Positions 19,998 to 47,705 of a DNA stretch of 64,000 nt are shown piece by piece. Numbering within the stretch: the stretch's first letter is position 1; each line of letters starts with the position of its first letter. Below the pieces are notes generated by a model, which was given only the letters and a program-made list of their open reading frames with translations, was not told the DNA's origin and ran no database searches. Origin of the DNA: Hyphomicrobiales bacterium. GTDB lineage: Bacteria; Pseudomonadota; Alphaproteobacteria; Rhizobiales; Beijerinckiaceae. The position numbers and the translations under genes were made by a program. The stretch lies in the NCBI GenBank assembly GCA_027483895.1, contig JAIXTP010000013.1:62001-126000 (forward strand). Direction: 5' to 3'.

Positions 19998-20689
19998 CCG
20001 GACTGGGCGCTTTTGGCCCGCAGCGAGCGGACCATCGCGAGCTTCACCCCTGCGACATGTTCGCGCATGATGTTTTCGGCTCTGACCGGGTCCCGGGCCA
20101 TGATGGCCTCGTAGATCCGGTGATGTTCCTCGTGTCGGCGTTCCAATTCCCGGATCTCGAGCGTCACGATGATGCGGTTCGAGACCCTCGGCTTCTCATA
20201 GGAGATCCGGATCATCTCGGCGAGCATCCGGTTGCGGGCCGCTTCCAGCACCGTGTCGTGGATCACGACGTTCACGTCGCGGAACTGCACCATGAAGTCG
20301 GGGCCCAGAAGTGCGGCCTCCGCGAGCGCCTTGTCGCCCTTCGCCAAGGCCGCTTCGAGTGCCGTTTCCTGATCCCTGGTCAGGCCCCGCTCGGCCGCGA
20401 AACGGGCGGCCAGACCTTCGAGCGCGCCTCGGATTTCATAGGCGTCGATCATTTCGGGAATGGGAAAGTCGCGGACCATGTAGCCGCGGTTCGGGGCGTA
20501 ATCGACGAGGCCCGCGGCGGCCAGCGAATGCAGTGCGGCGCGGACGGGCGTCCGCGACACGCCGAGATGCTCGCTGAGGCGCACTTCCTGCAGGCGCTCG
20601 CCGGGGCCGAGCGCGCCGGACAGGATGTTTTCACGCAGCCAGTCGGTGACCGAAAGAGAACGCGTCACGCTCTGTTTCGACGTTTCCAT
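19979..20689 (-). CDS. GntR-family (FCD) transcriptional regulator
   Basis: This 236-residue regulator has an N-terminal winged helix (residues about 12-75; HLGVSRTPVRAALHSLAAAGLV is the recognition region) and a C-terminal all-helical FCD ligand-binding domain with the metal/ligand pattern (EIRGALEGLAARFAA, FHDTV-like VIHDTV, HHRIYEAI). Such proteins usually repress a neighbouring catabolic operon until its substrate or product binds. It is divergent from the hydrolase operon at 20898. I chose the ATG at 20689, where the winged-helix domain begins; the upstream frame runs through the promoter region and is not coding. Confidence 0.92.
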   Translation of the reverse strand: METSKQSVTRSLSVTDWLRENILSGALGPGERLQEVRLSEHLGVSRTPVRAALHSLAAAGLVDYAPNRGYMVRDFPIPEMIDAYEIRGALEGLAARFAAERGLTRDQETALEAALAKGDKALAEAALLGPDFMVQFRDVNVVIHDTVLEAARNRMLAEMIRISYEKPRVSNRIIVTLEIRELERRHEEHHRIYEAIMARDPVRAENIMREHVAGVKLAMVRSLRAKSAQSGQTAPA

Positions 20690-20737
20690 GCCTGCATCGC
20701 CTCGAGCGCGCCCAATCCGGTCCAGCCTGTGCCGTTT

Positions 20738-20796
20738 TGTATACAGCCGCACGACGGACGGCGTCGATATCTCGTTCTTGTCGTTGAATGTATACA
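20738..20796. promoter_or_regulatory. Two TGTATACA palindromes, candidate GntR/FCD operators
   Basis: TGTATACA occurs at 20738-20745 and again at 20789-20796, 51 bases centre to centre (close to five helical turns). Both fit the T-x-GTATAC-x-A type of site bound by FCD-branch GntR regulators. They lie between the GntR gene and the divergent hydrolase operon. A TTGACA hexamer at 20804-20809 beside the second copy is a likely -35 element for the rightward operon, so occupancy would block it. Confidence 0.65.
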
Positions 20797-20897
20797 AAAC
20801 AGGTTGACACGCAATCATCTGTATCCAAGCATGACGATATATCTGAAGCCCGCGCAGCTCTTCGGTCGAAAGGAGCGCGCGACCGGGAGCTGTTGAG

Positions 20898-22130
20898 ATG
20901 GTCGATATCGGCGACGGCGCGATCGAGAAGATCACGGAAAACCGCAACGCTCATTACCAGCCCTACGGCTGGCACCATTGGCCGGAGAGCCCGTGGTTCG
21001 CGTATCAGTTCCGGCGCGGGCTGGGCGAGACTCAGGAAGGCGGCGGCTCCGTCTCCGAGGTCTTCATGGCCGCCTCGAAGATCATCCCCGGCGACGAGGA
21101 GAGCTGGCACAAGGAGTGGCAGGCGATCGGCGATTTCAACTGGAATCGCGGCGTCGACGAGGAGAAGGCGGGCCATATCCGGACCGCAATGAACTGCTAT
21201 CTCCGTGCGGCCGACTATTACCGTCAGGCCGAATTCTTCCTGCAGCCCGACGATCCGCGTCGGCTTCCCACCTTCGAGAAGATGGAAGCCTGCTCGAAGA
21301 AGTTCCTGTCCTATCTCAACCCGCCCGGCTTCGCTGTCGACATTCCCTATGAGGACGGCAAGCCGATCTGCGGCTATTTCGTCCGCGCGCCCTTCCCGGG
21401 CAAGAAGCTCCCCGTGCTGATCTGCATGGGCGGCCTCGACTCGATCAAGGACGAGATGTGGTTCATGCAGGCGCACGGCGCCCTGCAGCGCGGCATCTCG
21501 GTGCTGATGATCGACGGCCCCGGCCAGGGCGGCACGCTGCGCCGCCACAAGGTCTACACCCGTCACGACTCCGAAGTGCCGATCGGCAAGGTGATCGACT
21601 GGCTGGAGACGCGCGACGACGTCGACACCAAGCGCATCGCGCTCTGCGGCTCCAGCTTCGGCGGCTATTACGCTGCGCGTGCGGGCTGCTACGAGCCCCG
21701 TCTGGCCGCGGTCATCTCGCACGGCGCGATCTGGGACGTGTCGGAACTCTGGGCGGGCAAGCCCGACGATTTCGGCCTCGCGATGCATATCCGTTTCGTC
21801 TTCGGCGCGAAGACGATGGCGGAGGCCTCCGAGATGATGAAGCCCTTCACGCTCGAAGGGCATCTCAAGAACATGAAGTGCCCCTACCTGATCCTGCACG
21901 GCGGCTACGACGTGCTGACCATGTCGGCGGCGACGAAGACCTATGAGAGCGCCAAGGCGAACGGGGTGGACGTGACGCTCCGCTTCATCACGCCGGAAGA
22001 AACCGGCGCGGAGCATTGCCAGCACGACAATCCGACCATCGGTCAGGAAATGCTCGCCGATTGGCTCGCGGACAAGTTCGGGATCGACCAGCGCGAGCTG
22101 CTCAAGACCGGCTGGAACCCGCTGATCTGA
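20898..22130 (+). CDS. Alpha/beta hydrolase, FrsA / 2,6-dihydroxypseudooxynicotine hydrolase-like
   Basis: This 410-residue cytosolic hydrolase has a long helical N-terminal region (about 1-140) before an alpha/beta-hydrolase core. The nucleophile elbow is GSSFGG with S253, followed by D338 in HGGYDV and H373 in GAEHC, a complete triad. The MIDGPGQGG segment and overall plan resemble the C-C bond hydrolase of nicotine degradation (2,6-dihydroxypseudooxynicotine hydrolase) and FrsA-like proteins. First gene of the operon behind the GntR operators, preceded by GGGAGC. The substrate is inferred only from resemblance; an esterase role is also possible. Confidence 0.85.
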   Translation: MVDIGDGAIEKITENRNAHYQPYGWHHWPESPWFAYQFRRGLGETQEGGGSVSEVFMAASKIIPGDEESWHKEWQAIGDFNWNRGVDEEKAGHIRTAMNCYLRAADYYRQAEFFLQPDDPRRLPTFEKMEACSKKFLSYLNPPGFAVDIPYEDGKPICGYFVRAPFPGKKLPVLICMGGLDSIKDEMWFMQAHGALQRGISVLMIDGPGQGGTLRRHKVYTRHDSEVPIGKVIDWLETRDDVDTKRIALCGSSFGGYYAARAGCYEPRLAAVISHGAIWDVSELWAGKPDDFGLAMHIRFVFGAKTMAEASEMMKPFTLEGHLKNMKCPYLILHGGYDVLTMSAATKTYESAKANGVDVTLRFITPEETGAEHCQHDNPTIGQEMLADWLADKFGIDQRELLKTGWNPLI

Positions 22131-28121: not shown

Positions 28122-28824
28122 GGTCCGCGATCTCCATTCCTATTACGGCGACGCCCACGTCCTGCACGGCACCTCGCTCGAGGTCAGCCCGGGCGAGATC
28201 GTCGCTCTGCTCGGCCGCAACGGCATGGGCAAGACCACCCTCATACGCTCCATCATGGGCCTGACGCCGCCGACGGTGCGTTCGGGCGAGGTGAAGTGGA
28301 AGGGCGAGACCATCACCGGCCTGAAGCCGCACGAGATCGCTTCCAAGAAGATCGCGATCGTGCCGCAGGGCCGCCGTCTCTTCTCTTCGCTGACGGTCAC
28401 GGAGCATCTCACGATGCTCAAGAGCCCGCGCGTGAAGGAAGGCTGGACGATCGAGCGCGTGTTCGACGCGTTCAAGCGTCTGGGCGAGCGGCGCAACCAC
28501 CGCGGCAACCAGCTTTCTGGCGGCGAGCGCGGCATGCTGGCCGTCGCCCGCGCGCTGATGCAGGACCCGGAACTGATCCTGATGGACGAGCCCTCCGAAG
28601 GTCTCGCGCCCGTGATGGTGCAGAGGCTCGAAGAGGTCATCATCGATCTCGGCAAGACGGGGCTCGGCATTCTTCTGGTCGAACAGAACCTCTATTCGGC
28701 GCTCGATGCCGCGAGCCGCGTCTACATCATGGAGACGGGCAAGGTGGTGCATTCCGGCACCACGGCTGCGCTGAAGGCCGACATGAGCACGGTCGAGCGC
28801 TGGCTCGGGGTGCACGGCGGATGA
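28114..28824 (+). CDS. Branched-chain-type ABC transporter ATPase, LivF family
   Basis: This 236-residue ATPase has Walker A GRNGMGKTT, signature LSGGERGML, Walker B LILMDEPSEGLAP and LLVEQNLYSAL. The IVPQGRRLFSSLTVTEHL segment is LivF-like. I chose the ATG at 28114 where the ATPase domain begins; the upstream extension lies in the livG-like gene. Its stop overlaps the small AtzG-like gene (ATGA). Confidence 0.93.
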   Translation: MLEVRDLHSYYGDAHVLHGTSLEVSPGEIVALLGRNGMGKTTLIRSIMGLTPPTVRSGEVKWKGETITGLKPHEIASKKIAIVPQGRRLFSSLTVTEHLTMLKSPRVKEGWTIERVFDAFKRLGERRNHRGNQLSGGERGMLAVARALMQDPELILMDEPSEGLAPVMVQRLEEVIIDLGKTGLGILLVEQNLYSALDAASRVYIMETGKVVHSGTTAALKADMSTVERWLGVHGG

Positions 28825-29030
28825 GCGAGGGGCCGGCGTCCCTGCTTGCCGGCACGGCGGGCGATCTCAACGCCGTACCGCCCACGGCCGAACGGACCGA
28901 GCGCTTCGTCGAGATCGTCGCGGCGATGAATGCGACCATCAGGAAAGAGGCCGACCGCCTTCTGACGCTGGATTCGGATCCGCGGAGCCTCGAAGCGCTC
29001 TTCGCGCGGTCGGGGGACGTATCCCGATGA
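28821..29030 (+). CDS. AtzG-like (DUF4089) small amidase partner
   Basis: This 69-residue protein has two predicted helices (FVEIVAAMNATIRKEADRLL and a second around LEALFAR) and lies directly before an amidase gene with overlapping stop and start. Size, helix pattern and position match AtzG, the GatC-like partner that stabilises the AtzE hydrolase of the cyanuric-acid pathway. The sequence identity to AtzG is not something I can measure here, so the call rests on position and size. It is probably a subunit required for the next enzyme. Confidence 0.7.
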   Translation: MSEGPASLLAGTAGDLNAVPPTAERTERFVEIVAAMNATIRKEADRLLTLDSDPRSLEALFARSGDVSR

Positions 29031-31535: not shown

Positions 31536-33872
31536 TCACTCCGCGGCTTCGGCCGGGCGACCGGCGTCGATCATCTCCACGATGTCCTGCGGGGAGATCG
31601 GATGCTTGGTGATGCGCACGCCGAAGGGCGACAGCGCGTCTTCCACCGCCGAGATGACGGCCGCTGTCGCGGGGATCGTGCCGCCTTCGCCCGCACCCTT
31701 CACGCCCAACGGATTGCGCGGGGAGGGCGACTCCATGTGCACGATCTCGATGCGGGGCATCTCGGTCGCCAGCGGCAGGAGATATTCGCCGTAGTTCGTG
31801 GTCAGCGGCTGCCCGCTCTCGTCATAGATCATGCGTTCGAAGAGAGCGTTGCCGATGCCGTGCACCACGCCGCCGCGGATCTGGCCGTCGACGAGCATCG
31901 GGTTGATCAGCCGGCCGCAATCATGCGCCACCACGTAGCGCAGGATCTTCACGGCGCCGGTCTCGATGTCGACCTCGACCTCGCAGAGGTTCGAGCCGTT
32001 CGCGAAGGTGAGTTCCCGCGCTTCGTAATAGGAGGTCGCGGCGAGGCCGGGCTCGATGCCCTTCATCATCGGGGTGCCGAACAGGCCGTTGAGCTTCAGC
32101 GCGATGTCGCCGAGCGCGATCTTGCGGTCGGTTCCCGCCACGCGGACGAAGCCCGCCTCGAGCTCCATATCGGCTTCGGCCGCTTCGAGAAGCTGCGCGC
32201 CGACCTTGATCGCCTTGGTGCGGACCTCGGACGCGGCCATGTGGACGGAGGACCCGCCCACCACCGCCACGCGGCTCGCCACCGTGCCGATGCCCAGCGG
32301 GAAAGCCGCCGTGTCGGCCGCCTCCACCGTCACGTCCTCGATGCGGACGCCGAGAAGATCGGCGCAGATCTGGGCGAAGACCGTCTTGTGGCCCTGGCCC
32401 TGCGCTGCGGCGCCGGTCTGCAGATGGATCTTGCCGTCTGGCTGCACGCGGACCGTCGCGCCTTCGAAGGGCGCGAGGCCGGTATCCTCGACATAGCTGC
32501 CGATGCCGAGACCGAGATAGCGGCCTTCGGCGCGTGCGGCGGCCTGTCGGGCACGGAAATCGGCGCCGTAATGCTCGAAGGCCATGTCGAGGCAGCGGCC
32601 GTAGTCGCCGCTGTCATAGGCCACGGCGGAGCCGTCGCGCGCCTTCATGCCCGTGGTGTAGGGCATCTGCTCGGTCTTCACGAAGCTGCGGCGGCGCACT
32701 TCGGCCGGATCCATGTTCAGGTTCCGGGCGACGAGGTCGGCCGCGCGTTCGAGGATGAAGCAGGTATTGGGGCGGGCCGCGCCGCGCACCGGCGTGTTCG
32801 GCACCATGTTCGTGAAGATCGAATGGATCGTGACGTCCACGCAGTCGAGCGCATAGGGGCCGGGGAAGGACGCCATGCCCGTCGCGGGCAGCACGATGCC
32901 GTAAGGGATATAGGCGCCGTTGTCGTGCAGGCCGGTGCCGCGGAAGCCGAGCATGCGGCCGTCCGCATCAGCGGCCACCTCGTATTCCCAGATCTGGTCG
33001 CGCTGCTGGGTGGTGGCGACGAAATGCTCGCGCCGGTCCTCGATCCATTTCAGCGGCTGCTTCAGATGAAGCGCGGCCAGAGCGAGCGCGTATTCCTCGG
33101 CATAGACGACGGCCTTGGGGCCGAAGCCGCCGCCCACGTCGGGGGCGACCACGCGGACGCCGTTCTCTTCGAGGCCCAGATATTCGGCGAGATACCGCCG
33201 GACCATGTAGGGAACCTGCGTCGAGCTCCACATCTCGAAGCGGCCGCCCATCGGGTCGGGACGGACCACGACGCCGCGGCATTCCATGGAGTGGCAGCCG
33301 CCGCGGTGCAGTTCGAGACGCTCGCGGAAGACGTGCGGCGCCTTCGCGAAGATCCCGGCCGCATCGCCGAAGCCGCCCTTGAGCGTGGCGATCAGATTGT
33401 CCGGCGAATCCTCGTGCGCGAGGGGCGCTCCGGGCTGCAGGGCCCGGTCGAGATCGACGGAGGCGGGCAGGGGGTCGAAATCGACCATCACCATCGCCGC
33501 CGCATCCTCGGCCTGCGCGCGCGTCTCTGCCGCCACGACCGCGATCGTGTCGCCGACGAAATGCACGGAGCTGCGTGCCAGCGGATACTGGGTCTTCGCC
33601 TGTTTGATGATCGGCGCCGGGACCGGAAGGATCATCGGCTTCGCCGCGGCCTCGCCGAGATCCTCCGCCGTCAGAACGGCGTGGACGCCCGGCATTCCGC
33701 GCGCGGCCTCCGCATCGATCGAGACGATGCGGGCATGCGCGTGCGGGCTGCGCACGAAGGCGACATGCAGCATGCCGGGGATCGCGATGTCGTCGACGTA
33801 AGTGCCGCGACCGGTGATCAGCTTGGGATCTTCGAGTCGGCGGACCGAGGCTCCGAAATAACGCACGCCCAT
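31536..33872 (-). CDS. Molybdopterin-binding large subunit of a xanthine-dehydrogenase-family hydroxylase (CoxL-like)
   Basis: This 778-residue catalytic subunit binds molybdenum-molybdopterin cytosine dinucleotide in relatives. It opens with FGASVRRLEDPKLITGRG, has TPVRGAARPN near residue 358 and the catalytic glutamate in GVKGAGEGG near residue 725. True CO dehydrogenases carry AYRCSFR at the central loop; here the loop reads VRGAARP, with no cysteine, so CO oxidation is unlikely and hydroxylation of an aldehyde or N-heteroaromatic is more likely. I chose the ATG at 33872 after AGGAG. With the two genes upstream it makes a complete three-subunit enzyme. Confidence 0.92.
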   Translation of the reverse strand: MGVRYFGASVRRLEDPKLITGRGTYVDDIAIPGMLHVAFVRSPHAHARIVSIDAEAARGMPGVHAVLTAEDLGEAAAKPMILPVPAPIIKQAKTQYPLARSSVHFVGDTIAVVAAETRAQAEDAAAMVMVDFDPLPASVDLDRALQPGAPLAHEDSPDNLIATLKGGFGDAAGIFAKAPHVFRERLELHRGGCHSMECRGVVVRPDPMGGRFEMWSSTQVPYMVRRYLAEYLGLEENGVRVVAPDVGGGFGPKAVVYAEEYALALAALHLKQPLKWIEDRREHFVATTQQRDQIWEYEVAADADGRMLGFRGTGLHDNGAYIPYGIVLPATGMASFPGPYALDCVDVTIHSIFTNMVPNTPVRGAARPNTCFILERAADLVARNLNMDPAEVRRRSFVKTEQMPYTTGMKARDGSAVAYDSGDYGRCLDMAFEHYGADFRARQAAARAEGRYLGLGIGSYVEDTGLAPFEGATVRVQPDGKIHLQTGAAAQGQGHKTVFAQICADLLGVRIEDVTVEAADTAAFPLGIGTVASRVAVVGGSSVHMAASEVRTKAIKVGAQLLEAAEADMELEAGFVRVAGTDRKIALGDIALKLNGLFGTPMMKGIEPGLAATSYYEARELTFANGSNLCEVEVDIETGAVKILRYVVAHDCGRLINPMLVDGQIRGGVVHGIGNALFERMIYDESGQPLTTNYGEYLLPLATEMPRIEIVHMESPSPRNPLGVKGAGEGGTIPATAAVISAVEDALSPFGVRITKHPISPQDIVEMIDAGRPAEAAE

Positions 33873-33883
33873 GGTCGTTCTCC

Positions 33884-34378
33884 TCAAGCGCCCTGACGCA
33901 TCGTGGCGGCCGCCGACAGCGCGGCGTCCACGATGGTCTCGTAACCGGTGCAGCGGCAGATATTGCCCGAGATCGCGTCACGGATGCCCGCTTCGTCGAT
34001 CGAGGGGTTCTCTTCGATCACGGCCGCCAGCGTCGTCAGCATTCCCGGGGTGCAGAAGCCGCATTGCAGCCCGTGCTTCTCGTGGAAGGCTTCCTGGATC
34101 GGATGCAGCGTCCCGTCGGGCTCGGCGAGGCCTTCGACGGTGCGGATCACCATGCCTTCGGCCTGCACGGCCAGCATCAGGCAGGAGCGGACCGGCACGC
34201 CGTCGGCGATGACGGTGCAGGAGCCGCAGACGCCGTGCTCGCAGGCGAGATGGGTCCCCGTGAGCCGCAGATCCTCGCGCAGGAAGTCGCCCAGATGCTT
34301 GCGGGTCGACACCTCGCGCTCGACCGTGCGGCCGTTCACCACGAGGCGGATCCGCCTTTTTTCCTCGATCCCGTCCAT
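33884..34378 (-). CDS. [2Fe-2S] small subunit of the molybdenum hydroxylase (CoxS-like)
   Basis: This 164-residue electron-transfer subunit holds two iron-sulfur clusters. The first uses C46, C51, C54 and C66 (CEHGVCGSC plus a distal C); the second uses C106, C109, C141 and C143 (CGFC and CRC). Spacing is standard for the family. It passes electrons from the molybdenum site to the FAD subunit. It ends 11 bases before the large-subunit start, so the subunits are expressed together. Confidence 0.95.
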   Translation of the reverse strand: MDGIEEKRRIRLVVNGRTVEREVSTRKHLGDFLREDLRLTGTHLACEHGVCGSCTVIADGVPVRSCLMLAVQAEGMVIRTVEGLAEPDGTLHPIQEAFHEKHGLQCGFCTPGMLTTLAAVIEENPSIDEAGIRDAISGNICRCTGYETIVDAALSAAATMRQGA

Positions 34379-35301: not shown

Positions 35302-35874
35302 TCACCTCGTCTCTTCGTCGTTGCCGCCGCTGCGGCTGAATTTCGATTTGATCACGCCGCCGATCAGTTTCATCGCGGAAAGTTCGCGCGCGGCGGCGGG
35401 GGCCGCTTCGCCCTCGCCGTTCTCCGCCGCGATCTCGGCGCGCAGATTGGCCGCGAACTGATCGACGATCTGCGTCGCGATGTCTTTGATGAGCCCGGTC
35501 GCACGGCCGTATTGCGCGACGGCGCCGACGAGCTGGATCTCCGTCGCGACGTTCACGCGCGTGCCGCCATCTTCCTCGACGAGCGCGAAATCCGCGGTCG
35601 CGGAGGCGCTGCCGCGACCCTTCTGGTCGGCGCCCTTGGCCACCACGCGGGCGGTGCGCGCCGCCTCGTCGATGCCCGTGATGCTCGCTTCGCCCGCAAA
35701 GGCGAGCTGGACGGGGCCGACCTTCACGGTCGCTTTGCCCTTGTAGCGGTTGTCGCCGAGATCCTCGGTGAGCGAAGCGCCGGGAACGCAGGGCGCGATG
35801 CGCGGCACGTCGAGCAGCAACGGCCATGCGCGGTCGGGCGGGACGGGAACGGTGAAGCTGACGTCGATCTTCAT
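35302..35874 (-). CDS. CoxG-like SRPBCC protein
   Basis: This 190-residue protein has the CoxG/carbon-monoxide-dehydrogenase-subunit-G fold: MKIDVSFTVPVPPDRAWPLLLDVPRIAPCVPGA opening, then GPVQLAFAGEASITGIDE. The C-terminus extends into an amphipathic region that may attach to the membrane. CoxG recruits the hydroxylase to the inner face of the membrane in carboxydotrophs. Here it is the first structural gene after the GntR regulator. Confidence 0.9.
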   Translation of the reverse strand: MKIDVSFTVPVPPDRAWPLLLDVPRIAPCVPGASLTEDLGDNRYKGKATVKVGPVQLAFAGEASITGIDEAARTARVVAKGADQKGRGSASATADFALVEEDGGTRVNVATEIQLVGAVAQYGRATGLIKDIATQIVDQFAANLRAEIAAENGEGEAAPAAARELSAMKLIGGVIKSKFSRSGGNDEETR

Positions 35875-35901: not shown

Positions 35902-36561
35902 CTAGGGCACCACGGACGTGCTGGAGAGGGCCTTCATGACCCTTTTCTCCGCACGCTCGACATGGCGGGCGAGAAGGCGGCCGGCGGCGCGGCCGTCACG
36001 GGCCTGCAGCGCGTCCACGATGGCGGCATGTTCGGCGACGAGCGCGTCGGTGTTGCGGTCGGTCTCGCCGCGCAGGCCGGTGAGAACGAGCCGGTCGAAC
36101 TGGTCGTTCAGATTCTTGGCGACGTCGCCCATCCGCTTGTTGGGGCAGAGATCCAGCACCGCCGTGTGGAAGGCGTGGTTGTAGGCGACGAACCCGGCTT
36201 CCCCGCCCCATGCGTCGCAGGACCGGAACCGGTCCAGATCCGCGAGGGCTGCCTCCGACGCCCGGGCGGCCGTCAGCTCCGCGCAGGCGGGTTCCAGCAT
36301 CGAACGGAAGGCGAAAAGCTCGGCCGCGTCCGCGATCGAGACCGGGGCGACCCGATAGCCCTTGCGCGGTTCGACCAGGACGAGCCCCTCGGCGGCCAGG
36401 CGGGAAAGGGCGTCCCGGATCGGGCTCTTGCTCACGCCGAAACGTTCCGCGAGCACCCCTTCATAGAGCGTCGCGCCCGGAGGCAGCGCGCAGGAGAGGA
36501 TCTCGCGACGCAGCATGTCGTGGATCGTTTCGCGCCGGAGTTTCGGGTCTATTTCGAGCAA
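35902..36561 (-). CDS. GntR-family (FCD) transcriptional regulator of the hydroxylase operon
   Basis: This FCD-branch GntR regulator has its winged helix at about residues 5-70 (ERFGVSKSPIRDALSRLAAEGLV) and the FCD domain after it (FRSMLEPACAELTAA, YNHAFHTAVL). I chose the TTG at 36561 because it follows CGGAGAAA and the helix-turn-helix begins soon after; an ATG at 36642 without a ribosome site would add 27 atypical residues. It is first in the cox-like operon and divergent from the hydrolase-fold gene at 36716. An AGATATCT palindrome at 36663-36670 in the shared gap is a possible operator. Confidence 0.88.
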   Translation of the reverse strand: MLEIDPKLRRETIHDMLRREILSCALPPGATLYEGVLAERFGVSKSPIRDALSRLAAEGLVLVEPRKGYRVAPVSIADAAELFAFRSMLEPACAELTAARASEAALADLDRFRSCDAWGGEAGFVAYNHAFHTAVLDLCPNKRMGDVAKNLNDQFDRLVLTGLRGETDRNTDALVAEHAAIVDALQARDGRAAGRLLARHVERAEKRVMKALSSTSVVP

Positions 36562-36715
36562 GCTGATATTTCTCCGATGCGGAATCGATACCGCCGTGAA
36601 AAAGGCTTCGCAAGGAAAAACAGGAAAAATCCTCACCTGCATTGACCATCGAAACCGTCGACAGATATCTTAGCCGCAAGCGTCAGAAACGCAGAAGAAT
36701 CGGAGGAGTCCCCCT

Positions 36716-37483
36716 ATGCAGCACGTTCTCTCGACCGGCGCGGTCGTCACCGGAGCCCGGACGGGGCAGGGGCCCGATCTTCTGATCCTGCACTCGCTAT
36801 TGACCGATGCGGGCGCGTTCGACGCCGTGCTGCCCGAACTCGCGCGCGACTACACGGTGACGATCGTCAACCTGCCGGGCTTCCGCGGCTCGACGCCGAT
36901 CCCGGCCTCGATGGACGCCTATGTGGCGTGGATCGAGGAGGCGGCGACCGCGTTCGGCATCAAGGGCTCGGCCCTCGTGCTCGGCAACGGCTTCGGCGGC
37001 ACTCTGGCGGTGGCCTATGCGCTGGACCGCCCGGCGCGCGTGTCGAAGCTGGTGGTCTGCGATGCGGCGGCGGGCTTCCCCGAGCAGGGCAAGCAGGCCT
37101 TCCGCGTGATGGCGGAGAAGGTGAAGGCGGGCGGGCTCGGCTCGGTGGCGGAGATCGCGGCCAACCGCGTGTTCCACGCCGCCTATATCGAGAAGAATCC
37201 CGGCGTCATCGAAGAGCGGCGCAAGGCGCTGATGGCCATTCACCCGGACTCGTTCCAAGCCGCCTGCAGCATGCTGATCGATTGCGATCTCGTGCCGCGG
37301 CTGAAGACGATCGCGGTGCCCGCGATAGTGATCTGCGGCGAGCTCGATCAGGCGACGCCGCCCGCGCTCGGGCGCGTCATCGCGGCCGAAATCCCCGGCG
37401 CGCGCTATATCGAGCTTCCCGCCACGGGCCATTGCCCGCCGCTCGAGAACCCGGCGGCCTTCCTCGACGCCTTCCGGTCCTGA
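36716..37483 (+). CDS. Alpha/beta-hydrolase-fold protein lacking the nucleophilic serine
   Basis: This 255-residue protein follows the PcaD-like (3-oxoadipate enol-lactonase) plan. The usual G-x-S-x-G elbow reads GNGFGG, so the nucleophile position (residue 92) is glycine, while D211 (GELDQATPP) and H239 (GHCPPLE) are kept. Either it has lost hydrolysis and acts as a lyase, dioxygenase-like or binding protein, or a nearby residue substitutes. It is divergent from the GntR/cox-like operon and may belong to the same pathway. A ribosome site AGGAG precedes the ATG. Confidence 0.85.
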   Translation: MQHVLSTGAVVTGARTGQGPDLLILHSLLTDAGAFDAVLPELARDYTVTIVNLPGFRGSTPIPASMDAYVAWIEEAATAFGIKGSALVLGNGFGGTLAVAYALDRPARVSKLVVCDAAAGFPEQGKQAFRVMAEKVKAGGLGSVAEIAANRVFHAAYIEKNPGVIEERRKALMAIHPDSFQAACSMLIDCDLVPRLKTIAVPAIVICGELDQATPPALGRVIAAEIPGARYIELPATGHCPPLENPAAFLDAFRS

Positions 37484-39926: not shown

Positions 39927-41585
39927 ATGGCGAACGCTGCCGGCGTCGGCAAGACGCTCACATTCGGAGAAGGAGGCACCGCGGCCGCATTGGCCGCGCT
40001 CGCCGTTCTCTCCATCATCATCACGGCGAACGCCTGGACGCCCGAATACGGGTTCCACGCCTTCCTCTTCTTCCTCGGCAGCATCGCGGGCGTCTTCGCG
40101 ATCTTCAGCCGGTATCATGCGCGTCCGGCTGCGCCCGTCGCGCAGGAGATCGACGGCAAGCCGAACTACAACATGGGGCCGGTGAAGTTCGCCACGATCG
40201 CCGCCATGGTGTGGGGCATCGCGGGCTTCCTGATCGGTGTCGTCATCGCCGCGCAGTTGACCTGGCCCGCGCTGAACTTCGATCTGCAATGGATCAATTT
40301 CGGCCGGATGCGTCCGCTGCACACGTCCGCGGTGATCTTCGCCTTCGGCGGCAACGTGCTTCTCGCTACGTCCTTCTACGTCGTGCAGCGCACCTGCCAC
40401 GCGCGCCTCGCGGGCTCGATCGCGCCGTGGTTCGTGATCCTCGGCTACAACTTCTTCATCGTCATCGCGGGCACGGGCTATCTGCTCGGCATCACGCAGG
40501 GCAAGGAATACGCAGAGCCCGAATGGTATGCCGACCTCTGGCTGACCGTGGTGTGGGTCGTCTATCTGCTCGTCTTCCTCACGACGCTGTGGAAGCGCAG
40601 GGAACCCCACATCTACGTGGCGAACTGGTTCTACCTCGCCTTCATCGTCACGATCGCGATGCTGCATCTGGGCAACAACGCGACGATCCCGGTCTCGATC
40701 TACTCGCCCAAGTCCTACATCGTGTGGTCGGGCGTGCAGGACGCGATGGTGCAGTGGTGGTACGGCCACAACGCGGTGGGCTTCTTCCTGACCGCGGGCT
40801 TCCTGGCCATCATGTACTACTTCGTGCCCAAACGGGCCGATCGTCCGGTCTATTCGTACCGGCTGTCGATCGTGCACTTCTGGGCGCTGATCTTCCTCTA
40901 CATCTGGGCCGGTCCGCACCACCTGCACTACACGGCGCTGCCCGACTGGGCGCAGACGCTGGGCATGGTCTTCTCGATCATCCTGTGGATGCCGTCCTGG
41001 GGCGGCATGATCAACGGCCTGATGACGCTCGAAGGCGCGTGGGACAAGCTCCGCACCGACCCCGTGCTGCGCATGATGGTCGTGTCGGTCGCCTTCTACG
41101 GCATGTCGACCTTCGAAGGTCCGCTGATGTCGATCAAGGCGGTGAACTCGCTCAGCCACTACACGGACTGGACGATCGGCCACGTGCATTCCGGTGCGCT
41201 CGGCTGGGTCGGCTACGTCTCCTTCGGGGCGATCTACTGCCTAGTGCCGTGGCTGTGGAACCGCTCGCGGCTCTACTCGCTCAAGCTCGTCAACTGGCAC
41301 TTCTGGATCTCGACCATCGGCATCGTCCTGTACATCTCGGCGATGTGGGTCGCGGGCATCATGCAGGGCCTCATGTGGCGTGCCTACACCGCGCTCGGCT
41401 TCCTCGAATACTCGTTCATCGAGACGACCGAAGCCATGCACGGCTACTACGCCATCCGTACGCTCGGCGGACTGCTGTTCCTGACCGGCGCTCTGATCAT
41501 GGCCTACAACCTCTGGATGACGATCCGTTCGTCGGAGCTCGCCGAGAGCGCCGCCGCTCGTCCCCAGATGGTTCCGGCCGAATAA
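39927..41585 (+). CDS. ccoN: cbb3-type cytochrome c oxidase subunit I
   Basis: This 552-residue catalytic subunit spans the inner membrane about twelve times and reduces oxygen at a haem b3-CuB centre. Histidine-rich sites are visible: [39 protein letters not shown] and [12 protein letters not shown]. It lacks the TyrXXXHis arrangement of aa3 oxidases, as expected for the C-family. GGAGAGG precedes the ATG. First gene of the ccoNOQP operon under the FNR-type box. Confidence 0.97.
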
Positions 41586-41600
41586 GGGGGGAGTTCTCCG

Positions 41601-42335
41601 ATGTCCGCATGGGCCAAGCACCAGGTCTTCGAGAAGAACTCGTTGATCCTTCTTGTCGGCATTCTCCTCGTGGTCGCCATCGGCGGCCTCGTCGAGATCG
41701 TCCCGCTCTTCTACCTGAAGAGCACCATCGAGAAGGTGGAGGGCGTCCGGCCCTACACCCCTCTCGAGATGGCGGGACGCAACATCTACGTCCGCGAGGG
41801 CTGCTACAATTGCCACTCGCAGATGGTCCGTCCGCTGCGTGACGAGGTCGAGCGCTACGGCCACTACTCGCTGGCGGCCGAGAGCATGTACGACCGCCCG
41901 TTCCAGTGGGGTTCGAAGCGCACGGGCCCGGATCTCGCCCGCGTCGGCGGCAAGTATTCGGACGAATGGCAGCGCGCCCATCTCGTGAACCCGCGCTCGG
42001 TGGTGCCCGGCTCGATCATGCCCGGCTATCCGTTCCTCGCGGAGCGCGAGCTGGACGTGAAGCACATCGCGCAGGACCTGAAGGTGCAGGCGCTTCTCGG
42101 CGTTCCCTACAGCGACGAGATGATCGCCAAGGTCGAGACCGACATCGTCGCGCAGGCGACGGTGGACGATCCCGGCGCGGCCGAGCTGGTCAAGCGCTAT
42201 CCGAAGGCGATCGCTCGCGACTTCGACGGCAACCCCGCCCGGGTCACCGAGATGGATGCGCTCATCGCCTATCTGCAGATGCTCGGCACGCTTGTCGACT
42301 TCAAGACGTACGACCGCAAGGCCAACGTCCGGTAA
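41601..42335 (+). CDS. ccoO: cbb3-type oxidase mono-haem subunit II
   Basis: This 244-residue subunit has one N-terminal membrane anchor (about residues 13-37) and a periplasmic cytochrome c domain with a single CxxCH (C68, C71, H72) and the distal ligand methionine region [10 protein letters not shown]. It passes electrons to CcoN. It starts 16 bases after ccoN with a GGGGGGAG site. Confidence 0.96.
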
Positions 42336-42347
42336 CGGAGCTCCCCC

Positions 42348-42500
42348 ATGTCGACCTACGAAACGCTTGCGTCCTTCGCGCAGACCTGGGGCCTGATCGG
42401 CTTCGTGACCCTGTTCGGCACGGTGCTGGTCTATGCCCTGAAACCTTCGAACCGGGACCGCTTCGAACAAGCCGCCCGCGTGCCTCTGGAAAGGGACTGA
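42348..42500 (+). CDS. ccoQ: cbb3-type oxidase small subunit CcoQ/FixQ
   Basis: This 50-residue single-helix protein (MSTYETLASFAQTWGLIG, helix to about residue 30, then KPSNRDRFEQAARVPLERD) is the small stabilising subunit. The position between ccoO and ccoP and the KPxNRxRFEQAA-like tail identify it. It is shorter than usual gene-finder limits. Its TGA lies three bases before the ccoP start. Confidence 0.93.
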   Translation: MSTYETLASFAQTWGLIGFVTLFGTVLVYALKPSNRDRFEQAARVPLERD

Positions 42501-42503
42501 TCC

Positions 42504-43379
42504 ATGGCCGCCGAACACGACACCGTCGACAAGGTGACCGGAAAGAGCACGACCGGTCACGTCTGGGACGGCATCAAGGAACTGAACAATCCGCTGCCCG
42601 CCTGGTGGCTGTATCTGTTCTACATCACGATCGTCTGGGGCATCGGCTACGTGATCGCCTATCCGGCGATCCCGCTCGCCACGACCTTCACCAAGGGTCT
42701 TCTCGGTTACGCCTCGCGCGACGTGATCGAGCAGGACATGGAAGGCCTCAAAGCGATCCGCGGCGAGAGCATGATCCAGCTCGCCTCCGCGGAGCCCGCC
42801 AAGATCGTCGCCGATCCGAAGCTGCTCGGCGTCGCCCGCGCGCTCGGCAAGGCGGCCTTCGGCACCAATTGCGCTCCTTGCCACGGCCAGGGCGCGCAGG
42901 GTGCGCGGTCCTACCCGAACCTGAACGACGACAACTGGCTGTGGGGCGGCACGCTCGCCGACATCAAGCAGACCATCACGCACGGCATCCGGAACGAGAA
43001 CGCCGAGTCCCGGCAGGGCAACATGCCCGCCTTCGGGCGCGACGGACTCCTCCCGAAGGCCGACATCCCGCATGTCGCCGCTTACGTGCAGAAGCTCGCG
43101 GGCCGCAAGGTCGACGGCAATTTCGATCTGAAGAAGGGCGAGAAGCTGTTCGCCGAGAACTGCGCGGCCTGTCACGGCGACGCGGGCAAGGGCATGATCG
43201 AGGTCGGCGCCCCCAACCTCGCCGCCGACATCTGGCTCTACGGCGGCGATCACGCGACCATCGTCGAGACGCTTACCAACGGCCGCGGCGGCGTGATGCC
43301 CGGCTGGAGCGGTCGCCTCGACGCCGCGACGATCAACGCGCTGACCGTCTACGTGCATACGCTCGGCGGCGGCCGCTGA
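42504..43379 (+). CDS. ccoP: cbb3-type oxidase di-haem subunit III
   Basis: This 291-residue subunit has a membrane anchor (residues about 34-53, after ELNNPLPAWW) and two cytochrome c domains, each with CxxCH (C123-C126-H127 and C220-C223-H224). It takes electrons from the bc1 complex or soluble cytochrome c. It is last of the four structural genes and is followed by a hairpin. Confidence 0.97.
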   Translation: MAAEHDTVDKVTGKSTTGHVWDGIKELNNPLPAWWLYLFYITIVWGIGYVIAYPAIPLATTFTKGLLGYASRDVIEQDMEGLKAIRGESMIQLASAEPAKIVADPKLLGVARALGKAAFGTNCAPCHGQGAQGARSYPNLNDDNWLWGGTLADIKQTITHGIRNENAESRQGNMPAFGRDGLLPKADIPHVAAYVQKLAGRKVDGNFDLKKGEKLFAENCAACHGDAGKGMIEVGAPNLAADIWLYGGDHATIVETLTNGRGGVMPGWSGRLDAATINALTVYVHTLGGGR

Positions 43380-43394
43380 GCCCGAAGAACCGTC

Positions 43395-43418
43395 GCCCCG
43401 CGGTTTCGGCCGCGGGGC
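43395..43418 (+). terminator. Hairpin between ccoP and ccoG
   Basis: A 9-base-pair GC stem (43395-43403 with 43410-43418) closes a 6-base loop, followed by GGTTTCC. It separates the structural genes from the maturation genes and may partly terminate the message so that fewer assembly proteins are made. Confidence 0.6.
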
Positions 43419-43467
43419 GGTTTCCAAGAGAGCAATCCCCCGTTCCCCCGAAAGGGCAAGCTCCGTC

Positions 43468-44931
43468 ATGAGTGCTGCAGAACGACTCGAAGAGCCCGAA
43501 GACGAAGTCCCGCTCTATGCGAAGCGGCGCGAGGTGTACCCTCAGGCCGTCTCGGGCGTGTTCCGCTCCATCAAATGGACGGTGCTCTGCGTCACGCTCG
43601 GCATCTATTACTTCCTGCCTTTCGTGCGCTGGTATCGCGGCCCGAACGCGCCCGATCAGGCGGTGTTGATCGATTTTCCCGCGCGCCGCTTCTACTTCTT
43701 CTTCATCGAGATCTGGCCGCAGGAATTCTATTACCTGACGGGCCTGCTCGTGCTGGCCGCGCTGACGCTGTTCCTGATGAACGCGCTCGCGGGCCGGGTC
43801 TGGTGCGGCTATCTCTGCCCGCAGACCGTCTGGACGGATCTGTTCTATGCCGTCGAGCGGATGATCGAGGGCGATCGCCGCGAGCGGATGAAGAAATCCC
43901 GCGAGCCGTGGGATCTCGAACGCATCGCCGAGAAGGTCCTCAAGCATTCCGTCTGGCTGATGATCGCCTGGTGGACCGGCGGCGCCTGGGTGCTCTACTT
44001 CTCCGACGCTCCGACGCTGGTGCGCGATCTCGCCACCTTCCAGGCGCCCGTCGTCGCCTATGTCTGGATCGGCATCCTGACCTTCACCACCTATACGCTC
44101 GCGGGCTTCATGCGCGAGCAGGTGTGCCTCTATATGTGTCCGTGGCCGCGCATTCAGGCGGCGCTGACGGACGAGCACGCGCTCAACGTCATGTACCGCT
44201 ACGACCGCGGCGAACCGCGGATGTCGGTGAAGAAGGCGGAGCAGGCGAGGTCTTCGGGCGAGATCGTCGGCGATTGCGTCGACTGCAATCAGTGCGTCAA
44301 TGTCTGCCCCACGGGCGTCGACATCCGCCACGGCGCGCAATTGGGCTGCATCCAATGCGGCCTCTGCATCGACGCCTGCGACAACGTGATGGCGAAGGTC
44401 GGCCGGCCGACGGGCCTGATCGGCTACGACACCGACGCCAATGCCAAGCGGCGCGAGGAACGGCAGGAGCCCGTCTACCGCATCGTGCGGCCGCGCACCG
44501 TGCTCTATGCGGCGCTCATCGTCGGGATCGGCGCCTTGATGCTCGTGAGCCTTCTCGGCCGCGCGAGCCTCGGCGTGAGCGCCCTGCACGACCGCAATCC
44601 GCTGTTCGTGAAGCTCGCGGACGGCTCGCTTCGGAACGCGTATACGGTGCGGCTGATCAACAAGACGCTGGAAGAGCGCGTCTATCGGCTCGAGCTCGTC
44701 GGCCTGCCGCAGGGCACGCATATCGAGGCGGTCGGAACGACCGTTTCGGGCGAACGCAGCGTGCTGGCCGAAGTCGGCCCGGACCGGACGCGCGAATTGC
44801 GCGTGCTCGTCACCGTACCGAAGGGCATCACCGAACCTTCGGTGCCGCTGTCCTTCCGACTGACCGACATCGCCACGGGCGCGCAGGCGACCGTCGAGGA
44901 CTTCTTCAAGGGACCCGGGAGCGGACAATGA
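43468..44931 (+). CDS. ccoG: cbb3 oxidase assembly ferredoxin-like protein CcoG
   Basis: This 487-residue inner-membrane protein has several N-terminal membrane segments, the conserved WCGYLCPQTVW and CLYMCPWPRIQ sites, and two ferredoxin-type clusters: CVDCNQCVNVCP and CIQCGLCIDAC. It ends in a periplasmic immunoglobulin-like domain. In relatives CcoG (RdxA/FixG) supplies reductant for copper insertion into CcoN. Its stop overlaps ccoH (ATGA). Confidence 0.95.
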   Translation: MSAAERLEEPEDEVPLYAKRREVYPQAVSGVFRSIKWTVLCVTLGIYYFLPFVRWYRGPNAPDQAVLIDFPARRFYFFFIEIWPQEFYYLTGLLVLAALTLFLMNALAGRVWCGYLCPQTVWTDLFYAVERMIEGDRRERMKKSREPWDLERIAEKVLKHSVWLMIAWWTGGAWVLYFSDAPTLVRDLATFQAPVVAYVWIGILTFTTYTLAGFMREQVCLYMCPWPRIQAALTDEHALNVMYRYDRGEPRMSVKKAEQARSSGEIVGDCVDCNQCVNVCPTGVDIRHGAQLGCIQCGLCIDACDNVMAKVGRPTGLIGYDTDANAKRREERQEPVYRIVRPRTVLYAALIVGIGALMLVSLLGRASLGVSALHDRNPLFVKLADGSLRNAYTVRLINKTLEERVYRLELVGLPQGTHIEAVGTTVSGERSVLAEVGPDRTRELRVLVTVPKGITEPSVPLSFRLTDIATGAQATVEDFFKGPGSGQ

Positions 44932-45434
44932 GTTCGACCGACATGAACGAAGCGGGCGGGCGTCCGCTGACCGGCCGCAAGGTCCTGGCCATGCTCGTCG
45001 CCTTTTTCGGCGTCGTGTTCACCGTGAACTTCGTGATGCTGAGGCTCGCGACGGGGACCTTCGGCGGCGTCGAGACCGACAGCGCCTATAGGGAAGGCCT
45101 CGCCTTCAACGGGCAATTGGCCGCGGCGCGGGCGCAGGACGAGCGGGGCTGGAAGGTCGACGCAGCGCTGAGCCGCGGCGCCGACGGCGTGCTCGTGCGG
45201 ATCGACGTGAAGGACAAAGCGGGACTCGGCGTGACGGGGCTCGACGGCAATGTCGTGCTGGCCCGCCCGGCCGACCGCCGCGAGGATCGCAGCGCCGCCC
45301 TGTTGAGGGACCCCGACGGCCGCTATCAGGCCGTGCTGAAGGATCTCGACCCGGGGGCGTGGGATCTCGTGATCCGGTTCGACCGTTCCGGCGAGCGCCT
45401 GTTCCTTTCCAAGAGCCGCGTCATTCTCAACTGA
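44928..45434 (+). CDS. ccoH: cbb3 oxidase assembly protein CcoH/FixH
   Basis: This 168-residue protein has a short cytosolic N-terminus, one membrane helix (residues about 17-38) and a periplasmic FixH domain with AYREGLAFN and a late PGAWDLVIRFD segment. The role is assembly of the cbb3 oxidase. I chose the ATG at 44928, which overlaps the ccoG stop. Confidence 0.93.
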   Translation: MSSTDMNEAGGRPLTGRKVLAMLVAFFGVVFTVNFVMLRLATGTFGGVETDSAYREGLAFNGQLAAARAQDERGWKVDAALSRGADGVLVRIDVKDKAGLGVTGLDGNVVLARPADRREDRSAALLRDPDGRYQAVLKDLDPGAWDLVIRFDRSGERLFLSKSRVILN

Positions 45435-45452
45435 CACCTGAAAGGGTCGCAC

Positions 45453-47705
45453 GTGTCCCCCGCGATCGACCTCTCGGCCTTCGTCGAGACCGCCCCCTCC
45501 GGCGAGCATCGCCTCGATCTCGCCGTCGAGGGCATCACCTGCGCCGCCTGCATCGGCGACATCGAGCGCGGTCTCGCGCCGTTGCCGGGCCTCGCCTCGG
45601 CGCGCGTGAACTACACGCATCATCGGCTGACGCTGATCTGGGGCGAGGACGGGTTCGATCCCTCGGCCGCCGTCGCCCGGCTCGCACGGCTGGGCTACAA
45701 GGCGCATCCCTTCCGCCCGTCGCGGCAGGAAGAGATCGAGGCGGCGGAGTCCCGCGATCTGCTGCGCCGGCTGGCCGTGGCGGGCTTCGCGGCCATGAAC
45801 ATCATGCTGCTGTCGGTCTCGGTCTGGTCCGGCAACGTCACGGATATCGGCGACGAGACGCGCGATCTCTTCCACTGGCTGTCGGCGCTGATCGCGCTGC
45901 CGTCGGCGGCCTATGCGGGCCGGCCGTTCTTCGCGAACGCGCTGCGCGCGCTGCGGAACCGGTCGATGACGATGGACGTGCCGATCTCGCTCGGCGTCAC
46001 CCTCGCGCTCGGTCTTTCGCTCTATGAGACGATCCACTCGGCGCATCACGCCTATTTCGACTCGGCGGTGATGCTGCTGTTCTTCCTGCTGCTCGGGCGG
46101 GTGCTCGACCAGTCGATGCGGCGGCGCACGCGTGCGGTCGCGGACAATCTGATGGCCATGCGCGGCGAGACGGCGGTGCTGCTCGGCCCCGAGGGCGCGC
46201 GCGAAGTGCCCGTCCGGGCCGTCCGCCCCGGCGACGACGTTCTCGTGCGTCCCGGCGACCGCGTGGCGGTGGACGGCGTCGTGATCGAAGGCACGTCGGA
46301 GATCGATGCGAGCCTCGTCACCGGCGAGACCGCGCGCGAGCCCGTCCGGGCGGGGGCGCAGGTCTATGCGGGGACGCTCAACGTCTCCGGCGCCCTGACC
46401 GTTCGGGCGACCGCGCCCGCCGACTCCTCGCTGATCGCCGAGGTGAACCGTCTCGTCGCCGATGCGGCCGAGGCGCGCTCCCGCTATCTGCGGCTCGCCG
46501 ATCGCGCGGCACGGATCTACTCGCCCGTCGTCCACGTCACCGCTCTGCTCACCTGCATCGGCTGGCTCGTCGCCGGAGCGACGCTGCATGACGCGCTGGT
46601 GATCGCGATCGCGGTGCTCATCATCACCTGCCCCTGCGCGCTGGCGCTCGCCGTTCCTGCGACGCAGGTCGTCGCGGCGGGATCGCTGTTCAAGGCGGGC
46701 GTGCTTCTGCAGTCCCCGGAAGCCGTCGAGCGTATCGCCGCCTGCGACATGGTCGTGTTCGACAAGACCGGCACGCTCACGCTGCCCGAACCGCGGATCG
46801 CGGATCGCGAGCGGCACGACCCGGAACTGCTCGGCGTCGCCGCACGGCTGGCGCTGTCGAGCCGCCACCCGCTGGCCGTGGCGCTGGCCGCGGAGGCGCG
46901 CGGCGCCGTGCCTTATGCCGGCGTCGAGGAGCGGGCGGGGGAGGGGGTCGTCGCGACGATCGACGGCGTCGAGGCGCGCCTCGGCAGCCCGGTCTTCTGC
47001 AGCCTCGAGGACGAAGCGGCCGAAATCCTCGCGGCGGATCCGGAAGCCACCGCCATCGCCTTCCGCATGGGCGATCGCGGCGAAGTCTTCGCGCTGCGCC
47101 AGGCGCTCCGCCCCGACGCCCGCGAGGTCGTCGAAACGCTCCGCAAGGCCGGGTTCCGGATGATGATCCTGTCGGGCGACCGCGAGGGGCCGGTCGCCGC
47201 CGCGGCGGCCGCCTCAGGCATTGCCGAATGGCGCGCCCGCTGCAAGCCCGCCGACAAGATCGCCGTGCTCGAAGCGCTCAAGGCCGAGGGCCGCAAGGTG
47301 CTGATGGCGGGCGACGGCCTCAATGATGCGCCGGCGCTCGCCGCGGCCTGGGCCTCGATCTCGCCCGTGACGGCCGCGCATGTGGCGCAGGCCTCGGCCG
47401 ATGCGCTCTTCATGGGGGAGAGGCTCGCCCCGGTGGCCGCGGCGGCCTCCATCGCGCGGCGGGCGCTGTCGATCATGCGCCAGAATCTCGGGATCGCCGT
47501 GGTCTACAACATGATCGCCGTTCCGCTGGCGATGGCGGGCCATGTGACGCCGCTCATCGCGGCCGCGGCGATGTCGGGGTCTTCGGTGATCGTGACGCTG
47601 AATGCGCTGCGGGCGCGACCGGATCGTTCCGCCTCGCCCGCGCGTTCTACGGCGGAAACGGCGCGGGCCTCGGCGCCCGCGGTTCAGGCGAGGCTCGGAG
47701 CATGA
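45453..47705 (+). CDS. ccoI: Copper-exporting P1B-type ATPase for cbb3 oxidase
   Basis: This 750-residue heavy-metal ATPase has an N-terminal metal-binding domain (GITCAAC, C30 and C33), the transmembrane copper motif CPC (C393, C395), the phosphorylation site DKTGT (D437), TGET in the actuator domain and GDGLNDAP near the hinge. CcoI/FixI delivers copper to the periplasmic side for CcoN. It starts with GTG at 45453 and its end overlaps ccoS. Confidence 0.96.
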   Translation: MSPAIDLSAFVETAPSGEHRLDLAVEGITCAACIGDIERGLAPLPGLASARVNYTHHRLTLIWGEDGFDPSAAVARLARLGYKAHPFRPSRQEEIEAAESRDLLRRLAVAGFAAMNIMLLSVSVWSGNVTDIGDETRDLFHWLSALIALPSAAYAGRPFFANALRALRNRSMTMDVPISLGVTLALGLSLYETIHSAHHAYFDSAVMLLFFLLLGRVLDQSMRRRTRAVADNLMAMRGETAVLLGPEGAREVPVRAVRPGDDVLVRPGDRVAVDGVVIEGTSEIDASLVTGETAREPVRAGAQVYAGTLNVSGALTVRATAPADSSLIAEVNRLVADAAEARSRYLRLADRAARIYSPVVHVTALLTCIGWLVAGATLHDALVIAIAVLIITCPCALALAVPATQVVAAGSLFKAGVLLQSPEAVERIAACDMVVFDKTGTLTLPEPRIADRERHDPELLGVAARLALSSRHPLAVALAAEARGAVPYAGVEERAGEGVVATIDGVEARLGSPVFCSLEDEAAEILAADPEATAIAFRMGDRGEVFALRQALRPDAREVVETLRKAGFRMMILSGDREGPVAAAAAASGIAEWRARCKPADKIAVLEALKAEGRKVLMAGDGLNDAPALAAAWASISPVTAAHVAQASADALFMGERLAPVAAAASIARRALSIMRQNLGIAVVYNMIAVPLAMAGHVTPLIAAAAMSGSSVIVTLNALRARPDRSASPARSTAETARASAPAVQARLGA

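Follow-up and report, generated by a model that had tools for sequence, protein, structure and literature searches.

What does an alpha/beta-hydrolase-fold protein do when a glycine occupies its nucleophile position and the catalytic Asp and His are still in place? The question is raised by a gene in the window, by which we mean the whole 64,000-nucleotide stretch analysed, from contig JAIXTP010000013.1 of a Hyphomicrobiales bacterium. An earlier note on this DNA had read the elbow of the protein as G-N-G-F-G with D211 and H239 retained. The translated open reading frame at 36716..37483 (+) bears this out: residues 89-95 are L-G-N-G-F-G-G, residue 211 is Asp and residue 239 is His. In the list below, Gly rows are the family members in our alignment, and Ser rows are the outgroup sequences with Ser at the nucleophile position.

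36716..37483, + strand: Gly-elbow alpha/beta-hydrolase-fold protein (ABH), ATG start, 255 residues, from the open reading frame, Pfam and an AlphaFold2 model
36791..36802, + strand: oxyanion-loop motif H26-S27-L28-L29; Leu29 in 28/28 Gly rows, Gly or Ala in 66/69 Ser rows
36983..36997, + strand: nucleophile elbow G90-N91-G92-F93-G94, with Gly at nucleophile position 92; G90, N91, G92 and G94 invariant in 28/28
37217..37219, + strand: R168 in a cap-region helix; Arg in 27/28 Gly rows, mostly Trp, Val, Ile or Tyr in Ser rows
37346..37348, + strand: D211, the catalytic-Asp position, invariant in the family alignment
37430..37432, + strand: H239, the catalytic-His position, invariant in the family alignment

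Fold and family of the glycine-elbow protein

In relatives with a G-x-S-x-G-G elbow, as in PcaD (2xua) and an esterase (4uhh), the residue aligned with G92 is the Ser. ABH belongs to the alpha/beta-hydrolase fold superfamily, as judged from Pfam matches above the gathering score, the model and PDB matches. PF00561 (Abhydrolase_1) scores 73.8 bits against a cut-off of 25.8 and PF12697 (Abhydrolase_6) 72.7 against 26.3, and 28/28 members match both at E values up to 0.001. The AlphaFold2 model, built with 11 sequences, has a mean pLDDT of 93.1 and a pTM of 0.92. Among the VIA matches listed, the enol-lactonase 2xua is the closest (Z 35.1, rmsd 1.7, 250 residues aligned), tied with the hydrolase 3om8 (Z 34.6) and followed by the esterase 4uhe (Z 33.0).

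The best NCBIfam matches are PcaD models, both below cut-off: the bifunctional PcaDC at 148.4 bits against 390, and PcaD at 139.5 against 255.85. ABH also stays below the NCBIfam equivalog cut-offs of MenH (SHCHC synthase; 58.6 against 208.55 bits) and of the BphD or meta-cleavage C-C hydrolases (20.0 against 462.15 bits), and below the Pfam gathering score of Ndr (21.4 against 23.3 bits). The Ndr profile matches 17 of the 28 members at E values up to 0.001, with a best value of 1e-11, and some members may pass. In an excerpt of PMC7022630 on NDRG3, however, all triad residues are replaced by non-reactive ones, whereas D211 and H239 are kept in 28/28 of our rows. Public plasmid records annotate Gly-elbow genes as 'alpha/beta hydrolase', yet every member read lacks the defining residue of serine hydrolysis.

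Conservation of the glycine and changes around it

A contig scan of GTDB genomes gave 11 loci, ten of which (L001-L010, 42-79% identity) are members and all read G-N-G-F-G; the eleventh (L011, Nocardia, 26%, partial, G-Y-S-A-G-G) was dropped as a non-member. In protein and profile searches, members were found in 5/60 relatives, 10/397 genomes of the order, 7/385 of the class and 6/398 of the phylum, where each sample includes the genome of the window, some genomes recur across samples, and elbows among the 60 relatives were read for the 30 fetched loci only. In the class of G1036, the single genome with a member among 321 is G1036 itself. Members score at least 244 bits and the best outsider 162 bits, and a weak match at 144 bits (L122) carries Ser. 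The profile searches were seeded by Gly-family sequences, and intermediate Ser forms may be under-sampled.

With repeats removed (L012-L014 are duplicates of the window, L001 and L002, and L120 is one of L001), the family comprises 28 rows, or 25 at 90% identity, with pairwise identities of 0.31-0.99 and a median of 0.40. G90, N91, G92, G94, R151, D211, T214 and H239 are invariant in all of them. Among the outgroup sequences, which fill 70 rows of the 98-row alignment, 69 have Ser at the nucleophile position and one (L085) has Ala. The glycine is kept in two other genomes of the window's genus, and the three plasmid-borne members examined (L123-L125) also carry G-N-G together with Asp and His. 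In a tree inferred under LG+G4 by a quick method with no bootstrap, from which the elbow and oxyanion-loop columns were excluded, the Gly rows form one side of a branch with an SH-aLRT of 98, and a single change of the Gly label suffices. Most simply, the Ser nucleophile would have been lost once, in one clade of PcaD-like proteins.

The earlier note had doubted simple decay and proposed glycine conservation in orthologues as the check. Ser orthologues were sought and none was found, and 28/28 family rows carry Gly. The elbow codons of seven members differ synonymously only, and no stops occur within the listed matches. Pairwise dN/dS (Nei-Gojobori) among seven members is 0.20-0.46, which indicates purifying selection on the gene. 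Local mutation, sequencing error or gene decay is ruled out for practical purposes by the shared glycine, which includes the two same-genus genomes, by the open frames and by dN/dS, and the doubt about decay was well placed. Judged from these sequences, the best explanation is that the Gly-elbow clade stayed functional after the loss of Ser.

The further claim that the change is restricted to the nucleophile does not hold, since L29, F35, L53, P54, N91, F121, A148, R168 and F180 differ as well. Together with G92, these positions are fixed or nearly fixed in the 28 Gly rows; most of the 69 Ser rows differ there, with Gly or Ala for L29, Trp for F35, Arg for P54, Leu or Val for N91 and Tyr for F180. 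Because they shifted jointly between Gly and Ser rows, the surroundings of the active site were remodelled as a whole. The specific polar conserved positions of the Gly rows are N91 and R168. Among the conserved positions (entropy <0.6), those peculiar to the Gly rows include no Ser, Cys, Asp, Glu, Tyr or Lys that might serve as a replacement nucleophile, and a relocated nucleophile was rejected on this ground.

The remodelling bears on whether ABH could be a general-base hydrolase. In such an enzyme, the elbow Gly would leave room for a water that is activated by H239-D211 and attacks an enol-lactone, an ester or a C-C bond, so that the ancestral hydrolysis proceeds without an acyl-enzyme. 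The closest kin by fold and profile are hydrolases (PcaD 2xua and esterase 4uhh), and the C-C hydrolases MhpC and BphD, which take a gem-diol route, tolerate the loss of Ser. However, the change of the nucleophile is accompanied by others in the oxyanion loop, in the P54 loop and in the cap, which is more than the loss of one nucleophile would require, and we regard hydrolysis of this kind as unlikely.

The invariant His and Asp bear on a second possibility, a pseudoenzyme that binds a ligand or a partner, for example as a sensor or chaperone for the GntR regulator or the Cox proteins described below, with its pocket kept and no chemistry. A close precedent for the elbow is human DPP10, which has GKGYGG, retains His and Asp and, according to an excerpt of PMC4350108, is inactive. 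The portion of PMC7022630 consulted names further alpha/beta-hydrolase folds that are not enzymes, namely neuroligins, gliotactin and NDRG3. An abandoned active site, however, would not need to keep Asp and His down to 0.31 identity, and 28/28 rows keep both; many of the invariant columns lie in active-site loops. Moreover, the gene sits in enzyme-plus-transporter modules, in which the aldehyde dehydrogenases (ALDHs) retain catalytic motifs. A pseudoenzyme seems improbable to us.

Gene neighbourhood and regulator

The gene next to ABH in the window, transcribed divergently, encodes a GntR/FCD regulator, and CoxG, CoxM, CoxS and CoxL follow it in this order.

36663..36672, + strand: candidate GntR operator AGATATCTTA between GntR and ABH; 7/10 to TGATATATCA, shuffle P 0.17, weak alone
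35902..36642, - strand: GntR/FCD regulator, divergent from ABH; protein cluster in 19/29 ABH loci
35302..35874, - strand: CoxG-like (SRPBCC) protein; Pfam COXG 65.0 against 22.2 bits
34434..35297, - strand: CoxM-like FAD subunit of a molybdenum hydroxylase; all matches below curated cut-offs
33884..34378, - strand: presumably a CoxS-like [2Fe-2S] subunit, named from gene order
31536..33887, - strand: CoxL-like molybdenum subunit, without the form-I CO dehydrogenase (CODH) motif AYxCSFR

AYxCSFR is the active-site motif of form-I CO dehydrogenase. It is absent in 12/12 proteins of the CoxL cluster (one cut at 516 residues, one a duplicate of L001), and a form-I CODH was rejected for CoxL on this ground, though the nearest solved structure is CODH 8uem. 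The solved kin that follow 8uem are quinoline 2-oxidoreductase and 6-hydroxypseudooxynicotine dehydrogenase. The NCBIfam matches of CoxL, all below cut-off, are CODH_aero_grp5 first and then glyceraldehyde dehydrogenase.

The quinoline and pseudooxynicotine enzymes among these kin count in favour of a cofactor-free oxygenase of the HOD type. Here His-Asp would deprotonate a hydroxylated (hetero)aromatic and O2 would add at the oxyanion hole, with CoxLMS acting before it as an N-heteroaromatic hydroxylase and an AtzE-like protein after it as an amidase. An excerpt of PMC10548524 describes the nucleophile as dispensable, and naturally Ala in some such enzymes. D116, 24 residues past the elbow, is Asp in 26/28 Gly rows, and the HOD Asp lies 25 past the Ser (S101, D126) in the same excerpt. 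However, D116 is also frequent in the Ser rows (34/69), and the invariant acid is D211 at the usual position. ALDH replaces CoxLMS in 7/29 loci and is unneeded by such a pathway, and the AtzE-like gene of the window belongs to another gene run. An oxygenase of this type is, in our judgement, very unlikely.

Neighbourhoods were compared over 29 loci, namely 28 plus the window, with L120 repeating L001. Genes came from a simple caller of our own and were clustered, and many neighbour names (Liv, SDR, part of MFS) are presumptive. The GntR cluster is found in 19 loci, CoxL in 12, Liv permeases in 10, and ALDH and MFS in 7 each. Any Cox subunit or an ALDH of this cluster occurs in 23/29; in L003 and L007-L009 the sole Cox gene is CoxG at the locus end, where the locus is cut. 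The remaining six (L004, L006, L010, L110, L111, L113) have no Cox or clustered ALDH within the flank, some contigs ending early.

At nominal 1.5 kb flanks, Cox/ALDH genes lie near 13/20 Gly loci and 10/71 controls (Fisher P 2e-5), and the clustered GntR near 12/20 and 1/71 (P 5e-9). Control L085 has Ala rather than Ser, and L017, a repeat of L059 that was excluded from the 98-row alignment, is counted among the 71; without it, Cox/ALDH lies near 9/70 controls. With one duplicate control and two loci of the same genus taken out, P is 7e-5 for Cox/ALDH and 1e-7 for GntR. Identity to the L105 ALDH is 72-93% for the other six ALDHs at Gly loci, as against 35-42% for eight at control loci. The Cys and Glu motifs are retained in 10/10 ALDHs checked.

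Cox genes are combined with Liv genes in the window, L109 and L112 and with MFS in L103, and ALDH is combined with MFS in L105-L108 and L119 and with Liv in L117. The occurrence of all four oxidase/transporter pairings suggests a common role for CoxLMS and ALDH. In Methylobacterium radiotolerans pMRAD01, the genes are MRAD2831_RS61285 (ABH), RS61290 (GntR), RS61295 (ALDH) and RS61300 (MFS). The smallest unit observed, ALDH-GntR-ABH, lies on a plasmid of Sinorhizobium sp. B11 between sugar-transport gene runs.

The context differs in L113-L116, with HyuAB-like genes, SDRs and an aminotransferase, and CoxL lies nearby in L114-L116 without directly adjoining ABH. These four loci form a Gly-elbow subclade with G-N-G-A-G, and their HyuAB-like genes match caprolactamase models below cut-off. 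A DHDPS-family gene adjoins ABH in L001 and L002. Near Gly-ABH we also notice genes whose products we take to be isopenicillin-N-synthase-like 2-oxoglutarate oxygenases (L103 10047-11135, L010 6903-7976, L116 17182-18237); those of L103 and L116 have no NCBIfam match.

In L006, an iron-dependent alcohol dehydrogenase (Fe-ADH) gene adjoins ABH; its product matches maleylacetate reductases at E 1e-69, and its best NCBIfam match, below cut-off, is 4-hydroxybutyrate dehydrogenase. A maleylacetoacetate isomerase gene is found in L117 and L111 (scores 217 and 275 against a cut-off of 171), adjacent to ABH in L117 and one gene off on the opposite strand in L111. The best solved kin of the ALDH include gamma-hydroxymuconic semialdehyde dehydrogenase. 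Taken together, they fit lower (hetero)aromatic acid catabolism, without naming a substrate. They also fit ring-cleavage intermediates, which counts for the general-base hydrolase considered above.

Palindromes like TGATATATCA occur in many GntR intergenic stretches, and 14 of the 21 scored had a shuffle P <0.05, with 300 shuffles each, near-copies included and the consensus derived from the same stretches. The value was not <0.05 for the window, L001, L003, L009, L104, L108 and L119. In the hold-out L123-L125, of which L123 and L125 are close kin, the consensus was fixed beforehand and each stretch matched it at 9/10. We infer that the GntR/FCD regulator controls the ABH module.

Elsewhere in the window, 20898-22130 (+) encodes a second, unrelated alpha/beta hydrolase, whose solved kin are 3fnb acylaminoacyl peptidase (E 1e-27) and 2jbw 2,6-dihydroxy-pseudo-oxynicotine hydrolase (E 1e-24). 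It heads a gene run to 30409 with genes for an HpcH aldolase, OsmC, a PuuE-like protein, an AtzE-like amidase and, as we assume, a Liv transporter. Before the amidase gene, a 69-residue open reading frame (28821-29030, +) has no Pfam match; we presume that it is possibly an AtzG-like small subunit. This run is divergent from another gene (19979-20947, -), which we take to be GntR-like, and this weakens the idea that the Liv-AtzE run shares the regulon of ABH. Between the two, TGTATACA palindromes at 20738-20745 and 20789-20796 are possibly operators, which weakens this idea further; the GATATNTY sites at 20766 and 20836 could have arisen by chance, as the whole window has 5 against 3.8 expected. 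Another region, 39927-47705 (+), is presumably a cbb3 oxidase cluster (CcoN, CcoO, CcoP, CcoG, FixH, copper ATPase).

Proposed function and comparison with known systems

On the basis of these observations, ABH is likely to be an active enzyme of some non-covalent kind. The covalent nucleophile is gone while the His-Asp pair is invariant, which points to general-base, non-covalent catalysis. Owing to the swap of ALDH and CoxLMS, an aldehyde-linked step is the most economical assumption, and our best guess is a C-C lyase or decarboxylase. The earlier note had suggested a possible lyase, binding or cofactor-free oxygenase-like role; the gene neighbourhood favours an enzyme linked to aldehyde oxidation. 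Our working choice, held with somewhat less than even confidence, is a non-covalent His-Asp general-base C-C lyase or decarboxylase that acts on an organic acid and is paired with aldehyde oxidation.

In such a lyase or decarboxylase, no acyl-enzyme would be formed. The organic-acid substrate would be gripped by the cap arginines R151 and R168, and H239, polarised by D211, would act as the general base. What was once the oxyanion hole, with its backbone amides after G92 and in the HSLL loop, may stabilise an enolate or oxyanion during a C-C cleavage of the retro-aldol or decarboxylation type. The carbonyl product or its partner would be oxidised by the neighbour, CoxLMS here and an aldehyde dehydrogenase in other genomes, and the GntR/FCD regulator would govern the module. 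The Cox enzyme is a putative aldehyde oxidase, and the catalysis, base role, reaction type and substrate class of ABH are predicted ones.

Several points count against the lyase reading. As inactive DPP10 shows by keeping His and Asp, a retained dyad is no proof of catalysis. The context of L113-L116, the 6/29 loci without Cox/ALDH and the 10/71 controls with them speak in the same direction, and what CoxL matches best, both in solved structures and in NCBIfam, are CO dehydrogenases rather than aldehyde oxidases. The aldehyde could also come from another enzyme, such as the DHDPS-family protein of L001 and L002 or the HpcH-like aldolase of the window's upstream run.

A broader proposal, which we consider less likely than not, is that the clade abandoned covalent catalysis and serves a two-step lyase/decarboxylase module in which the aldehyde oxidase can be either CoxLMS or ALDH and a single GntR regulates both steps. 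If true, the module would be an undescribed organic-acid catabolic route, mostly of Alphaproteobacteria. The linked GntR, oxidase and transporter genes provide a route to the substrate, and they might assign a function to a CoxLMS group whose best family match is CO dehydrogenase.

With PcaD 3-oxoadipate enol-lactonase (TIGR02427; 2xua), ABH shares the whole-length fold, the Asp and His positions and R151-x-F153. It differs in having Gly for Ser, so that G-x-S-x-G is absent, and in the changed L29, P54, N91 and R168; no protocatechuate-pathway genes were recognised among the neighbours examined, by inspection rather than by profile. The Thermogutta terrifontis esterase (4uhc/4uhh) is the best PDB match of ABH by sequence and by family profile among the matches listed, but it is a Ser esterase with 27-28% identity.

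HOD and AqdC use a His-Asp dyad as general base and can dispense with the nucleophile, as an excerpt of PMC10548524 describes. Compared by this description, HOD has its Asp elsewhere (D126) and Ser or Ala rather than Gly; its absence among the best 50 PDB matches of ABH is uninformative either way. The same excerpt describes MKS1 methylketone synthase, which decarboxylates beta-keto acids without a canonical triad. MKS1 shares with ABH the alpha/beta-hydrolase fold lacking that triad and is non-hydrolytic, but it is a plant enzyme that keeps His with a Thr partner. DPP10/DPPY, in the part of PMC4350108 available, shares the G-x-G-x-G-G elbow and the kept His and Asp. It is, however, an inactive human membrane protein of the S9B peptidase kind with GKGYGG and not GNG, and the DPP10-like class is further marked by catalytic inactivity and a narrowed access channel.

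Alpha/beta-hydrolase-fold proteins without the nucleophile are already known, and a Gly-elbow clade with His and Asp provides a natural test of this scaffold without its nucleophile. In the literature searched, mainly by titles and abstract openings, we found no account of such a clade. What appears to be new against the known systems is a bacterial clade with an invariant G-N-G and intact Asp and His, located in aldehyde-oxidase modules.
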